Assembly: GCF_002954325.1 (NCBI RefSeq)
Contig: NZ_MQVX01000001.1
Span: 625,546-689,545 of the forward strand
DNA length: 64,000 nucleotides
Reading direction: 5' to 3'
Source: Aureicoccus marinus
GTDB taxonomy: Bacteria; Bacteroidota; Bacteroidia; Flavobacteriales; Flavobacteriaceae
The position numbers and the translations under genes are program-made. Of this stretch, positions 8,966-53,256 are shown in pieces; position 1 is the first letter of the stretch, and every line of letters begins with the position of its first letter. The notes beneath the pieces were generated by a model. The model did no database searches and was not told the DNA's origin. It worked only from the letters and a program-made list of their open reading frames with translations.

Positions 8966-10318
8966 ATGCCCTATTCTTTACTCGTCATTGTCTCTTTGGT
9001 GGCCTTGATCATATTTTGCAGTCTTCGCCTAAAATGGCACCCGGTATTTAGTCTGTTGACAGCTGCTCTCTTAGGAGGATTGGTCCTGGGGTTAAATCCA
9101 AAGGAATTAAGTAAGACCATCGCAGCAGGCTTTGGTTCCACCCTGGGAAGTATCGGTTTGGTTATTGCCCTAGGAACCGTCATTGGTCACTATTTGGAAC
9201 AAACGGGAGGCACGCGCTATATCGCAGATAAATTACTACAGTGGACCGGTCCAGCGAGGGCTCCGTGGGCACTAAACATTGCGGGGTTTGTCATCTCTAT
9301 ACCGGTTTTTTGTGACTCTGGCTTTATCGTGCTATCCCCGCTGACCAAATCTCTGGCTCAACGGTCGAACTGGTCCCGCTTGGTTTTAAGCATTGCTTTA
9401 GCAACGGGCCTGTATGCCGCTCATGTATTTGTTCCACCGACACCCGGTCCTTTGGCTGCAGCTGCCTTGCTCGACGCCAACTTGGGATTATTACTGGGAT
9501 GGGGGCTCGTCGTTGGATTAATAGCAGCCACCACGGGTTATCTCTGGGCACATTACGGATTATCTTCTCAAAAGGCAAAAGAAGATTTACAGGAACTTAA
9601 GAGCGAAGAACTAATTCAATCGTCCCATTCGGCTGGAGGAACGGGTCATTTTTTGCCGGTCCTGATCCCCGTCCTACTTATCGGCTTGGGATCCGTGGCC
9701 AATTGGCCGGGAAGCGCCTTGGAATCTGCTGGAATGTTTACCTTCGTGTTGCAATTCCTGGGATCTCCTGTAATAGCTTTGGGTGTTGGCTTGTTGTTTA
9801 GTTTTCTTCTAGCAAAACGCTATGCGGTGAAAGAACAGCAATCTTGGATTCTGAAGGCATTTGAACAAGCTGGGGTTATTCTCTTGGTCACCGGAACGGG
9901 TGGAGCCTTTGGAGCTGTACTAAAGACCGTCGATTTGGCTTCCATGCTTCCCTTGTCAGGGGATTCGGCCTGGGGAGCCCTGTTGGTCTTTTTTGCTTTG
10001 GCCGCCCTTTTGAAATCGGCCCAGGGATCTTCTACGGTGGCCATCTTAACGGTGAGCTCGATCGCAGCACCTTTACTAGGGGAAGTGGGATTGGCTAACT
10101 CTCTTGGCCGGGTGTGTGCGGTATTGGCTATCGGTGCTGGGGCGATGACTGTTTCTCATGTAAACGACAGTTATTTCTGGGTGGTGAACCAGTTTAGTGG
10201 CTTGACGGTCAAACAAAGCTTGAGGTCCCTGACACTGGCCACTGGATTACAAGGCGTGGTGAGTATTGCCTGTGTAATCGCTCTTTACTTGGTTCTGGGA
10301 TCTACTTTTGAATCGTGA
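8966..10318 (+). CDS. gntP: GntP-family gluconate:H+ symporter
   Basis: 450-residue integral membrane permease with about 12-14 hydrophobic segments across the whole length. Family signatures: GLGLNP-type loop VLGLNPKELSKTIAAGFG, the GTVIGHYLEQTGGTRYIA segment, FCDSGFIVLSPL, FVPPTPGPLAAA and the C-terminal HVNDSYFWVVNQF. The family moves gluconate or related aldonates with protons. It stands alone, with no kinase gene beside it, but a gluconokinase domain occurs elsewhere in the window fused to MiaA (C-terminal part of 49710-51110). Its last 17 bases overlap the convergent DUF4249 gene. Confidence 0.94.
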   Translation: MPYSLLVIVSLVALIIFCSLRLKWHPVFSLLTAALLGGLVLGLNPKELSKTIAAGFGSTLGSIGLVIALGTVIGHYLEQTGGTRYIADKLLQWTGPARAPWALNIAGFVISIPVFCDSGFIVLSPLTKSLAQRSNWSRLVLSIALATGLYAAHVFVPPTPGPLAAAALLDANLGLLLGWGLVVGLIAATTGYLWAHYGLSSQKAKEDLQELKSEELIQSSHSAGGTGHFLPVLIPVLLIGLGSVANWPGSALESAGMFTFVLQFLGSPVIALGVGLLFSFLLAKRYAVKEQQSWILKAFEQAGVILLVTGTGGAFGAVLKTVDLASMLPLSGDSAWGALLVFFALAALLKSAQGSSTVAILTVSSIAAPLLGEVGLANSLGRVCAVLAIGAGAMTVSHVNDSYFWVVNQFSGLTVKQSLRSLTLATGLQGVVSIACVIALYLVLGSTFES

Positions 10319-13774: not shown

Positions 13775-16013
<2,239 letters not shown>

Positions 16014-16882: not shown

Positions 16883-17562
16883 TCACTCCTTATCGAGTAA
16901 ATCTGGTCGTCGTTCTTGCGTCCTTTTTAAGGCTTGTTCTTCTCGCCAGGCATCAATCTTGGGTGTATTCCCACTGAGGAGTATTTCGGGAACCTTCCAA
17001 TCCTTGTATTCAGCAGGGCGGGTATACACAGGTGGAGCGAGTAATCCATCCTGAAAACTGTCCGTCAGGGCAGAGGTTTCGTCATTCATCACCCCCGGAA
17101 TCAAACGAATAATACTATCAGATACGACGCCGCGGCCAACTCTCCTCCAGAAAGAACATAATCTCCAATCGAAATTTCGTGGGTAATCACATGATCCCTT
17201 AACCGTTGATCGACCCCTTTATAATGTCCACAGAGAAGGATGATGTTTTCAAAAAGACTATAGCTGTTGGCATCACTTTGTTCCCAGGGTTTTCCGTCCG
17301 GGGTAAGATAGGCCACCGCCTGATACTCTCGTTGACTTTTGAGTTCTTCAATGCATCGGTCCAAAGGCTCTATCATCATCACCATACCGGCTCCACCGCC
17401 AAAAGCGTAGTCATCTACCTGCCGGTAATTACCGGTTGCATAGTCCCTGGGATTGTGAAAGTGAATTTCCACCAATTCATTTTGGATAGCCCGTTGAAGA
17501 ATGGAGGCTTCGAACGGACTCTGAATCAGTTCAGGAAGTAAGGTGATGATATCGATACGCAT
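16883..17562 (-). pseudogene. trmD: tRNA (guanine-N1-)-methyltransferase, frameshifted
   Basis: TrmD methylates G37 next to the anticodon and is normally essential. The first frame ([17 protein letters not shown] ... [16 protein letters not shown] ... [12 protein letters not shown] ... [13 protein letters not shown]) is the SPOUT knot-forming domain. The second frame resumes with [16 protein letters not shown] and runs to the normal C-terminus. The join is at about 17127-17132, where GCGGCGTCGTA needs one more base to read [11 protein letters not shown] one-base loss in a short C or G run explains it. Restored length would be about 225 residues, normal for the phylum. Located 20 bases downstream of the GNAT gene and upstream of rplS, the common trmD-rplS order. 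Confidence 0.92.
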
Positions 17563-48993: not shown

Positions 48994-49707
48994 ATGGAAA
49001 CAGTAAACAAGAAGATTCTTTTGGTGGAAGATGATCCCAATTTCGGGATTGTTTTAAAGGACTATTTGCACATGAACCAATTCGATGTGGTTCTGGCAAA
49101 GAATGGAATGGAGGGTTTCGAGAAGTTCAAAAAGGACCAATTTGACGTGTGTATTTTGGATGTGATGATGCCCTATAAAGACGGGTTCACCTTGGCCAAA
49201 GAAATCCGTGAAAAAGACGATCAGATTCCGATCGTATTCTTGACGGCCAAGACCATGAAGGAAGACGTGCTGAAGGGATATAAGGTAGGGGCAGATGACT
49301 ATTTGAACAAACCATTTGATTCTGAAGTGCTTCTGCTTAAGCTTAAAGCGATCTTGCAGAGAAAAGCATCTAACAGTCTGGTGGACAGTAAACAACATGA
49401 GTTTCAAATTGGAAATTTCCACCTCAACTCCAAATTGAGATTCTTGACTTATAAAGAAGATGAGCCCATTAAGCTTTCGCCTAAAGAAAACGAACTCCTT
49501 CGTCTTTTGGCCTTGCATGAAAATGACCTTATGCCACGGGAGTTGGCTCTGACTAAGATCTGGAGAGATGACAATTACTTCACTTCAAGAAGTATGGATG
49601 TTTACATTGCTAAACTTCGAAAGTACTTGAAGAAAGATGGCGTGGTTGAAATTCTGAATATCCATGGGGAAGGATTCCGTTTAGTGATTCATCAGGAAAA
49701 CGAATAA
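48994..49707 (+). CDS. OmpR/PhoB-family response regulator
   Basis: 237 residues. Receiver: ILLVEDDPNFG, phosphoacceptor Asp56 in CILDVMMPYKDG, VFLTAKTMKEDVLKGYKVGADDYLNKP. Winged-helix output domain at about 135-237: KLSPKENELLRLLALHEND and SRSMDVYIAKLRKYLKKDG. Cognate of the adjacent kinase. The signal and target genes are unknown. Ends 2 bases before the convergent miaA-gntK gene. Confidence 0.96.
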   Translation: METVNKKILLVEDDPNFGIVLKDYLHMNQFDVVLAKNGMEGFEKFKKDQFDVCILDVMMPYKDGFTLAKEIREKDDQIPIVFLTAKTMKEDVLKGYKVGADDYLNKPFDSEVLLLKLKAILQRKASNSLVDSKQHEFQIGNFHLNSKLRFLTYKEDEPIKLSPKENELLRLLALHENDLMPRELALTKIWRDDNYFTSRSMDVYIAKLRKYLKKDGVVEILNIHGEGFRLVIHQENE

Positions 49708-49709
49708 GC

Positions 49710-51110
49710 CTAATGCTCTAGTTGATCTAGCGCATTCTCAACGGCCTCTTCGAGAGGCCATTCAACCGATATTCGAATGGCATCTTCAGGTTCTTCCAAG
49801 GCCTGAAATTGTGATTGAAGTAATTCAGGAGGCATAAAATGACCCTTTCTCTTGTTTAGCCTTTGGTAGAGATAGTCAAAGTTTCCTTGCAGGTAAATTG
49901 TTTGTACCCGAAGGTATTCATTGAGCAAGTCTCGGTAACTGCCTTTTAAAGCAGAGCAGGCGAGTACTACCCCCTTATCCTGATGGTCAAGTAGAACCAA
50001 GGCTAATTTCTGTAGCCAGGGCAATCGGTCCTTGTCATTTAAGGGTTTACCCGATTTCATTTTTGCGATGTTTTCTTCAGGGTGATAGTCATCGGCGTCT
50101 AGGTATGTAATATCCAACCGCTGGGCTATGGCGTTGGCTAGACTACTCTTCCCACATCCCGAAACACCCATAACCAATAGAACCGGAGCCGCTTGTTTTT
50201 TTTGAATCCAAGAATCGACTTGTGCCAGTTTGCGTTCATTGCTCCAACCCGTGGGCAACCAGTTGATTTTTTTGTTCTTTCGGTACCAGGTCAATTGTCT
50301 TTTAGCGAATCGACGGGTGTTCGTCTTTATGGCATCCACCGCTTCTTCCAAAGAGCACTCTCCAGAAAGATGAGAGAATAATTCTTTATAACCGACCGTA
50401 TTGAGCGCATTCAATTTCCGGTGTTCATAAAGATTTCGAGCCTCTTCCAACAGTCCTTCATCCATCATGAGGTCTACGCGTTGTTCAATTCTAGCGTAAA
50501 TCTGTGAGCGTTCTGCAGCTAATCCAATGTAGAGCTTGTTTTTGAGAGAAGGATCAGGTCCTTTTCTAAACGTACTGTAGGGTTTTCCTGAGGCCAGACA
50601 AACCTCTAGGGCCCTCATAAGTCTCATTGGATTCTGAAAATCGACCTGCTGGGCATACTCGGGGTCCAATTCATTTAATTTCATTTGCAGCCCTTCCAGC
50701 TCCTTTTCGGCAAACAGCTCACGAACTTCTTTTCGTATCTTTTCAGGAATCGCTGGAAAATCATTCAGGCCCTGAATCAAGGCATCAGTATACAAGCCGC
50801 TGCCGCCAACCACCAAGGCCTTGCCTTTGGTTTGGAGTAATTCTTGCACCAAGGGCTCGGCTTCTTGAGCGAATTGAGCTGCGCTGTATTCCTCTGAAAT
50901 GCTGCGGTGTTGAATAAAGTGATGCGGCACTTGTCGGAGTTCTTCTGTGCTGGGAACAGCAGTTCCAATGCGCATTTCGCGATAAAATTGACGGGAATCA
51001 GCAGAGATGATTTCGGTCTTCCAATGTTGGGCTAAGGCAATGGAAAAGGCCGTTTTACCAATCGCTGTAGGTCCAACTAAAGCGGCAAGGGTTGTAGAAT
51101 TCTTTTCCAT
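49710..51110 (-). CDS. miaA: Fused tRNA dimethylallyltransferase (MiaA) and gluconokinase
   Basis: One uninterrupted 466-codon frame. Residues ~1-290 are a complete MiaA: P-loop GPTAIGKT (13-20), ISADSRQFYREM, VGGSGLYTDALIQGL, the C-terminal IKTNTRRFAKRQLTWYRK and INWL. Residues ~308-466 are a complete gluconokinase of the GntK type: P-loop GVSGCGKS (315-322), DADDYHPEENIAKMKSGKPL (338-357), ACSALKGSYRDLL, and GHFMPPELLQSQFQALEEP. A ~20-residue linker (SNERKLAQVDSWIQKKQ) joins them. The first half prenylates A37 of UNN tRNAs; the second would phosphorylate gluconate. Last gene of a seven-gene minus-strand operon. Confidence 0.92.
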   Translation of the reverse strand: MEKNSTTLAALVGPTAIGKTAFSIALAQHWKTEIISADSRQFYREMRIGTAVPSTEELRQVPHHFIQHRSISEEYSAAQFAQEAEPLVQELLQTKGKALVVGGSGLYTDALIQGLNDFPAIPEKIRKEVRELFAEKELEGLQMKLNELDPEYAQQVDFQNPMRLMRALEVCLASGKPYSTFRKGPDPSLKNKLYIGLAAERSQIYARIEQRVDLMMDEGLLEEARNLYEHRKLNALNTVGYKELFSHLSGECSLEEAVDAIKTNTRRFAKRQLTWYRKNKKINWLPTGWSNERKLAQVDSWIQKKQAAPVLLVMGVSGCGKSSLANAIAQRLDITYLDADDYHPEENIAKMKSGKPLNDKDRLPWLQKLALVLLDHQDKGVVLACSALKGSYRDLLNEYLRVQTIYLQGNFDYLYQRLNKRKGHFMPPELLQSQFQALEEPEDAIRISVEWPLEEAVENALDQLEH

Positions 51111-51934
51111 TAAAGAAGGTCACCGCAGTTATAACAGTATTTGGCGCCATCCCGGTGATTTTCTACGGAACAGTTGGGACAGGCCTGTGTATTGGTATGG
51201 ACATAGGATTCGCTACTGGTCTTTTTCTCGCCGGAATGCTTGGCGTATTCCACGGTCACTATTCCGGTTGGAACGGCGATTATACCGTAACCCATGACCA
51301 TGATTATGGTGGCAATAAATTGCCCTAAGGTGGTTTGGGGGGCAATGTCTCCGTACCCCACGGTAGTCAAGGTAACGATGGTCCAATAAATACTTCTGGG
51401 AATACTAGTAAAACCCGATTCTTCTCCTTCAATCTGGTACATAATGGTCCCCATGATCACCGATAAGATCAATACCGTATAGACAAAAACTAAAATCTTG
51501 GCCCGACTTGCTCGGAGTGCCTTGCTGAGTTGGGATGCCTCTCCCAGAAATTTAACCAACTTGAGAATTCGAAACACCCTCAACAAACGGAAAGCCCGCA
51601 CGGCCAAGAGAACCTGTGACCCCGCAAAAATATAGGAGAGGTACAAGGGGATAGTCGCCAATAAATCAATAAGCCCGTAAAAACTAAAAATGTAGCGAAA
51701 GGGCTTTTTGACACTGACGATCCTCAGGATGTATTCCAGGGTAAAAAACAGGGTAATTCCCCATTCAATCTTCAGAAATAAGTCGTGGTACTTGGCGTCA
51801 ATATGCCCAACGCTTTCGAGCATGACCACTACCACACTGAGTAAAATCAAAAAGAAGAGAACCAGATCGAATAACTTGCCCATGGGCGTATCGGCCTCAT
51901 AAATAATCTCATGTAGTCGGTTGCGTAGTCCCAC
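51110..51934 (-). CDS. Voltage-gated potassium channel-like protein with C-terminal zinc ribbon
   Basis: 274 residues. Six membrane segments of the Kv type: S1-S3 in about 22-105, an S4 with regularly spaced Arg (VRAFRLLRVFRILKLVK, 112-128), and S5-pore-S6 with selectivity filter TVGYGD at 191-196. The C-terminus carries a four-Cys zinc-ribbon (CPNC at 252-255 and CYNC at 267-270), which is unusual for bacterial channels. Inner-membrane K+ channel, probably tetrameric. Overlaps miaA by one base (TAATG). Confidence 0.94.
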   Translation of the reverse strand: MGLRNRLHEIIYEADTPMGKLFDLVLFFLILLSVVVVMLESVGHIDAKYHDLFLKIEWGITLFFTLEYILRIVSVKKPFRYIFSFYGLIDLLATIPLYLSYIFAGSQVLLAVRAFRLLRVFRILKLVKFLGEASQLSKALRASRAKILVFVYTVLILSVIMGTIMYQIEGEESGFTSIPRSIYWTIVTLTTVGYGDIAPQTTLGQFIATIIMVMGYGIIAVPTGIVTVEYAKHSGEKKTSSESYVHTNTQACPNCSVENHRDGAKYCYNCGDLL

Positions 51935-51936
51935 CT

Positions 51937-53256
51937 TTAGTCTTTAAATTCAATCCGCTTAGCCTCGGGTTTCTGCAGAAGATGGTACTCCAACAGGTAA
52001 CGGGTGTTGTGGTCATCTTTAACCGGGCTGAGCAACTTTTCTAAGATACTTAAATTATTAATCTGCCTTTCGAGCTCCGTAAAGCCGTAACCGATAAGTT
52101 GTCCGGATCGGACCAGGATCACGCTTTTTTCGCCCAGTTTTCGACCCTTATCGACCAGGGCAAAGGTTTTATTCCCGAGGCGTAGCTCTTCTAAAGCCTT
52201 TCCCCAACGTTTATTGTACTCCTCTGGGGCTTCGCTGAATTCGGATTCCTTATATTTTTTATCGGCTCGAAAGGGAAGGTTGTGGAGCTCTTGCCATTGG
52301 TTTAAGGCTTGTTGAGCAGCCAGGTAAGAAGGGAAGTAGAGCAAGCCATGTTCTTTCTTAACCGATTTGCGTATGCGTATGGCGCAGTAGCCCTGAACCG
52401 TATCTTCTACCCACTCATAACTGTAAAGCGGCTTGGATTTAAGAGGGTTGTGCCGAGGTCTTAATTTTTTGCGAAGCTGATACTCCCGCAATAGAGCGAT
52501 GAGTTCTGTACCGCTCAGCTCGAAGGTGACCTCCCGGGTTTCTTTTTGCAAGCGTAAAGCGAGTTCTCCGGCATTGGTGAAGTGTTGGTTGACGCGCTTT
52601 TGAATGTTCTTCGTCTTGCCGGTAAAAATGACTTCACCGTCTTTGTTGTGTAAAAAGTACACCCCGATTTCGGCAGGCAAATTTTCGACGATATCCAGTT
52701 GTCGTTGAGAGAGTTCTCCGTACTCTTCTGCACGAATGACCGATTGTAGAATGGACTTGTTCTGGTCCTTGTTCAATAGAATTTCAAAAAGCTTCAGTGT
52801 GGCTAACGCATCTCCCTGAGCTCGATGCCGATCACTGACGGCTATGCCCAGGGAACGAACTAGTTTGCCCAGGCTGTGGCTTTCTGCATCGGGGATCAAT
52901 CGCTTAGAAAGCTCTACGGTACACAAGGTTTTTCGTTGAAAATCGTAGCCCAATCGCCTAAATTCTGTTCTTAGAATTCGGTAATCAAATTGAGCATTGT
53001 GCGCAACAATGGTGGTGCCTTCTGTAATCTCAATGATTCGCTTGGCGAGTTCATAAAATTTCGGTGCTCCTTTTAGCATCTTTTCGTTGATGCCCGTGAG
53101 CTTGACCACAAAGGGCTGAATCCTCCTTTCGGGGTTAATCAGGCTACTGAACTGGTCGGTTACTTCTCTGCCATCAAAACGGTAGATGGCAATTTCCATG
53201 ATTCCTTCCTCATTGAACTTGCCTCCGGTACTTTCAATGTCAAGTATGGAATACAT
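51937..53256 (-). CDS. DnaQ-like 3'-5' exonuclease fused to a GIY-YIG endonuclease domain
   Basis: 439 residues. DEDDh exonuclease at 1-165 (Asp6 and Glu8 in ILDIESTGG, Asp91 in AHNAQFDYRIL, His144/Asp149 in DRHRAQGDALATLK), like the epsilon proofreading subunit. GIY-YIG nuclease domain at about 193-270, reading GVYFLHNKDGEVIFTGKTKN (GIY as GVY, YIG as FTG). A UvrC-like C-terminal part of unknown role follows, rich in basic residues. The Epsilon/UvrC fusion is known in bacteria as a repair-type nuclease (Cho-like). Between YggS and the channel in a tight operon. Confidence 0.93.
   Translation of the reverse strand: MYSILDIESTGGKFNEEGIMEIAIYRFDGREVTDQFSSLINPERRIQPFVVKLTGINEKMLKGAPKFYELAKRIIEITEGTTIVAHNAQFDYRILRTEFRRLGYDFQRKTLCTVELSKRLIPDAESHSLGKLVRSLGIAVSDRHRAQGDALATLKLFEILLNKDQNKSILQSVIRAEEYGELSQRQLDIVENLPAEIGVYFLHNKDGEVIFTGKTKNIQKRVNQHFTNAGELALRLQKETREVTFELSGTELIALLREYQLRKKLRPRHNPLKSKPLYSYEWVEDTVQGYCAIRIRKSVKKEHGLLYFPSYLAAQQALNQWQELHNLPFRADKKYKESEFSEAPEEYNKRWGKALEELRLGNKTFALVDKGRKLGEKSVILVRSGQLIGYGFTELERQINNLSILEKLLSPVKDDHNTRYLLEYHLLQKPEAKRIEFKD

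Follow-up and report, generated by a model that had tools for sequence, protein, structure and literature searches.

A single reading frame joins MiaA to a GntK-type gluconokinase in Aureicoccus marinus

Two enzyme domains in one frame

The window, a 64,000-nucleotide stretch of the Aureicoccus marinus genome, contains a miaA–gntK gene on its reverse strand (positions 49710..51110) that begins with ATG and encodes 466 amino acids in one frame. Domain scores, motifs and structure matches support the original prediction that MiaA and a GntK-type gluconokinase are genuinely fused here. The explanation we put forward as the best, and regard as very probable, is that it specifies a bifunctional protein formed by recurrent, nearly neutral fusion of overlapping neighbour genes that were probably translationally coupled.

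The 466-codon frame holds two full enzyme domains, as first read from its translation, and both match Pfam and NCBIfam models over their full length and above the curated cut-offs. The MiaA part comprises residues 1–306 (50193..51110, reverse strand), delimited by the TIGR00174 match at residues 11–285 (272.7 bits against a cut-off of 148.65; model positions 4–283 of 288), alignment A2 and a predicted model, and includes a C-terminal helix at 291–306. Its P-loop GPTAIGKT (residues 13–20; 51051..51074, reverse strand) shows little or no variation in alignment A2, which has 30 rows (four fused proteins, six in-frame neighbours read through the stop codon, and 20 MiaA proteins). Residues D42 and R217 of Escherichia coli MiaA, which we take to have roles in the enzyme, align to D38 and R211, and T19 and T24 align to T15 and T20; all four are invariant across the alignment. 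The effects of T19A and T24A in the E. coli enzyme have been described (PMC9303304). The solved MiaA structures 2qgn and 2zm5 are matched by sequence, and 3foz_A and 2zm5_A by predicted fold (Foldseek TM 0.80 by target length).

The GntK part (residues 310–466; 49713..50183, reverse strand) is likewise defined by a profile match, a match to 1knq and its fold. TIGR01313, the GntK/IdnK-type gluconokinase model, is matched at residues 312–463 with 173.2 bits against a cut-off of 113.75, covering positions 2–161 of 164. The second P-loop GVSGCGKS (residues 315–322; 50145..50168, reverse strand), read in the same frame, and the motifs DADDYHPEENIAKM, PLNDKDRLPWL, CSALK..YRD and RKGHFMPPELLQSQF all align to 1knq; each domain thus has its own P-loop, as noted at the outset. 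The predicted fold matches 1knq_A (TM 0.82) and 3t61_B (TM 0.83), both by target length. The half does not reach the cut-offs of two equivalogs, scoring 147.4 bits with NF008583, the E. coli-type gluconokinase (cut-off 265), and 125.1 bits with NF007336 (cut-off 304), and the other flavobacterial GntK proteins scanned also fall below that of NF008583. Judged from these alignments, both halves keep the residues expected of working enzymes.

A whole-genome profile search finds a single match to PF01715 and a single match to TIGR01313, both within the fusion, so that both functions would rest on this one gene. Directly upstream is a voltage-gated potassium-channel-like gene (51110..51934, reverse strand) that overlaps miaA by 1 nt and is a conserved neighbour in relatives, preceded by a DnaQ/DEDD exonuclease-like gene (51937..53256, reverse strand) in an operon-like run with the channel gene and miaA–gntK. 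Downstream, a convergent two-component response regulator gene (48994..49707, forward strand) lies 2 bases from the end of the fused frame; it too is a conserved neighbour, and the same protein is also encoded beyond gntK in L037, L040, L041 and L042.

Gluconate use through the pentose phosphate pathway, suggested earlier from a GntP permease in the window, remains plausible given that permease and, elsewhere in the genome, zwf, pgl and a gnd whose frame is broken. The GntP-family permease gene (8966..10318, forward strand) is not linked to the fusion and its product, at 268.9 bits, falls just below the TIGR00791 cut-off of 292.75; gluconate uptake is a plausible function for it. The genes zwf and pgl, named from their translations, are grouped with gnd ~30 kb outside the window. 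The gnd gene (L097:4451–5958; G000:C1 at about 592–594 kb) is in two frames beside intact-looking zwf and pgl, and its break could be either a sequencing error or a real loss. GntP-like permease genes lie downstream of miaA–gntK in L038, L039 and L002, which suggests a gntK–gntP cassette placed behind miaA in some relatives; that of the window is 40 kb off.

The junction

An AlphaFold2 model built with an alignment of window and locus proteins has a mean pLDDT of 89.8 and a pTM of 0.63, and its best Foldseek matches form two sets, MiaA structures and gluconate kinase structures. The pTM implies that the relative placement of the halves is not confidently predicted. By DSSP on this model the final MiaA helix spans residues 291–306 and the first GntK strand 310–315. 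Since the helix reaches 306 and the strand begins at 310, the predicted linker is about three residues (307–309; 50184..50192, reverse strand), and the ~20 residues originally estimated are too many. The sequence spanning the join is SWIQKKQAAPVLLVMGVSGCGK. A run of eight adenines on the reverse strand just before the junction (50196..50203) is a candidate site of a fusing indel or of a sequencing error. Programmed slippage on this run, which reads A AAA AAA in frame, was considered; a −1 slip would yield MiaA with a 17-residue tail, and it found no support.

The only possible internal kinase starts are TTG312 and ATG314. Both lie inside the first strand of the modelled kinase, and initiation at either was rejected as it would delete most of strand 1 (310–315). 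The kinase is therefore probably produced solely as the tail of the fused protein.

Arrangement in relatives and origin of the fused frame

Fused frames occur in four of 397 sampled genomes of the family, each in a different genus and including that of the window, and a scan of 395 Bacteroidota genomes returned no further fused frame among the matches listed. The fusion is not conserved within genera, being present in one of four and one of eleven species of two multi-genome genera; both figures are for genera other than that of the window. A set of 77 loci, taken as best matches and hence enriched in relatives of the query, comprises 35 in which gntK immediately follows miaA, four that are fused and 38 that lack gntK inside the fetched flank. 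In a less biased set with one genome per genus, gntK is directly behind miaA or fused to it in 10 of the 23 genera that have a GntK-type kinase (our own count).

The unfused adjacent pairs are mostly out of frame (29 of 35), and in most of them gntK begins, with an ATG, 1–14 nt inside the end of miaA; in all 35 the miaA stop codon lies 13–48 nt before the GntK MGVSG motif. Short stop-to-start distances have been used as a criterion for translational coupling (PMC3711429), and those seen here suggest that miaA and gntK are probably coupled in the relatives. The remaining six pairs (L002, L040, L041, L042, L043 and L067) share a frame and are parted by a stop codon, so that stop loss would fuse them.

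On the MiaA tree nearly all cases of the neighbour arrangement belong to a single group of 40 rows (SH-aLRT 94). Four changes are required to explain the fused state there, and well-supported branches force at least two of them. The poorly resolved GntK tree requires three. The window lineage has a long branch and an uncertain place on both trees. Pairwise identities of MiaA and GntK correlate across pairs (r = 0.69), which fits joint descent. Absence from close relatives had been named as grounds for rejecting the fusion; it is indeed absent from most of them, but it stands, because fusions recur independently.

One natural case shows how the frame is made. The fused gene of L037 is near-identical around the join to the gene pair of L062, its closest sister, and L037 has one base fewer just before the gntK ATG, a deletion that turns an 11-nt out-of-frame overlap into a single frame. 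In silico, a single-base indel could fuse every one of the 29 out-of-frame pairs. The earlier view that an indel would hardly produce two intact domains in one frame thus does not hold. The fusion would go back to an ancestor in one flavobacterial clade in which gntK came to lie immediately after miaA, the two genes overlapping slightly in different frames and presumably being translationally coupled. A small indel or a stop loss would then have merged the frames, and GntK would have lost its separate start.

Both partners are also found in other fusions. GntK–Gnd fusions of ~626–630 aa occur in several flavobacterial genera (L043:2437–4320, L100:128–2014, L102:89–1969 and L103:149–2041), and five further genomes have open frames of GntK–Gnd length at the gntK match. 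MiaA is fused to a C-terminal GNAT region (FR47/Acetyltransf_1) in both examined genomes of one genus (L099:1272–2870 and L098:1465–2907).

Alternative explanations

Because other genes of the window contain indels, the original prediction had asked whether the join might be a sequencing error. The concern is justified by frameshifted genes in the assembly: monomeric NADP-isocitrate dehydrogenase (window 13775–16001) is in two overlapping frames covering model positions 6–442 and 441–742, and the TrmD frame (window 17101–17562) ends at model position 143 of 221 with the remainder in another frame, both probably through assembly indels, and gnd is broken as described above. The genes could then be separate and overlapping in reality, joined in the assembly by an indel, perhaps in the A8 run that sits at the junction. 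We consider this very unlikely, and it fails to explain the junction itself. With seven or nine adenines in place of eight, the MiaA frame would end 29–34 nt beyond the point where the GntK MGVSG motif begins; in all unfused pairs examined it ends before that motif. A scan of every single-base indel in the junction covered 228 changes, of which just one distinct change gave an ordinary gene pair. It removes a base from the GG of codon W301 and would require a TTG start where nearly all relatives start gntK with ATG. The sequence of the MiaA C-terminal helix moreover stays in frame to residue 306, and the same kind of fused frame is present in three other genomes of three other genera. A kinase of GntK fold acting on a small substrate other than gluconate would be in keeping with the failure of both equivalogs, which are E. 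coli-centred, the GntP score below its cut-off and the broken gnd, but it too is unlikely: the half exceeds the cut-off of the gluconokinase subfamily, it has the motifs and fold of gluconate kinases, and relatives fuse the same kinase family to 6-phosphogluconate dehydrogenase, the next step of gluconate use.

The join could also reflect selected coupling of tRNA A37 modification to carbon state, for instance if GntK dimerisation organised MiaA or gluconate binding altered it. The miaA–gntK pair is retained across a large flavobacterial group, and the four recurrences of the fusion could be read as selection. In E. coli, MiaA has been reported to multimerise and, through its level, to affect the proteome like a rheostat (PMC9303304); since MiaA level matters there, an effect of the GntK tail on MiaA is possible by analogy. 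Selected coupling nevertheless seems quite unlikely. That only one of four and one of eleven species within genera have the fusion is evidence against the join being under strong selection. MiaA and GntK share no substrate or pathway, and the pTM gives no confident domain interface. The GntK–Gnd and MiaA–GNAT fusions suggest that the ends of both proteins are simply permissive. A more specific proposal, that fusion and loss of the GntK start were selected so that the gluconokinase half controls how MiaA oligomerises or how active it is, is highly improbable; were it true, pentose-phosphate carbon flow would alter the decoding of UNN codons. The suggested tie between tRNA A37 modification and gluconate metabolism is not supported, as fused frames turn up sporadically within genera and single-base changes in overlapping neighbour genes account for them. 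The two genes have been joined repeatedly and independently among relatives, which makes the fusion look like a chance product of gene order and not a new regulatory link.

A bifunctional protein without cross-talk is the simplest account of the fusion. The N-terminal half would act as a standard MiaA, adding a dimethylallyl group to A37 of UNN-reading tRNAs, and the C-terminal half as a standard GntK-type kinase, converting gluconate to 6-phosphogluconate for the oxidative pentose phosphate pathway. With the neighbour genes probably coupled in translation already, the fusion would add only a fixed 1:1 ratio.

Significance and comparison with known systems

The interest of the miaA–gntK gene lies in the mechanism of fusion rather than in a new activity. 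It offers a clean example of how overlapping, probably coupled genes give rise to multidomain proteins by single-base changes, repeatedly in one bacterial family. It is also a warning that fusion of unrelated enzymes need not mean a functional link, as gene order here joins proteins of unrelated pathways, and that in annotation a fused gene may carry the name of one half only. A search of the open-access literature, with most subscription papers outside its scope, found no paper on a miaA–gntK fusion.

Each half is an ordinary member of a known family, and the combination of the two is a recurrent variant. Compared with MiaA proteins (TIGR00174; 2zm5, 3foz and 3exa), the N-terminal half has the same full-length domain, P-loop, fold and aligned counterparts of T19, T24, D42 and R217, and differs in the second enzyme added at its C-terminus. 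Relative to GntK/IdnK-type gluconokinases (TIGR01313; 1knq, 3t61 and 4eun), the C-terminal half has the same full-length domain, P-loop, substrate-site motifs and fold, but lacks a usable start codon and is probably produced only as a MiaA tail. The adjacent or overlapping miaA–gntK pairs of Flavobacteriaceae (e.g. Allomuricauda, L031) have the same genes in the same order, with the same flanking channel, exonuclease and response regulator genes, but encode two separate proteins, and the genes usually overlap over a short stretch in different frames. The fused genes of L037, L038 and L039, in three other genera, have the same single frame (463–477 aa) and both domains; they retain an internal ATG at the position of the separate GntK start, which the window gene lacks, and may still produce a separate GntK. 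In the GntK–Gnd fusions (L043, L100, L102 and L103) the same type of kinase is fused to another enzyme, but that partner is on the other side of GntK and, unlike MiaA, belongs to the kinase's own pathway as its next enzyme.
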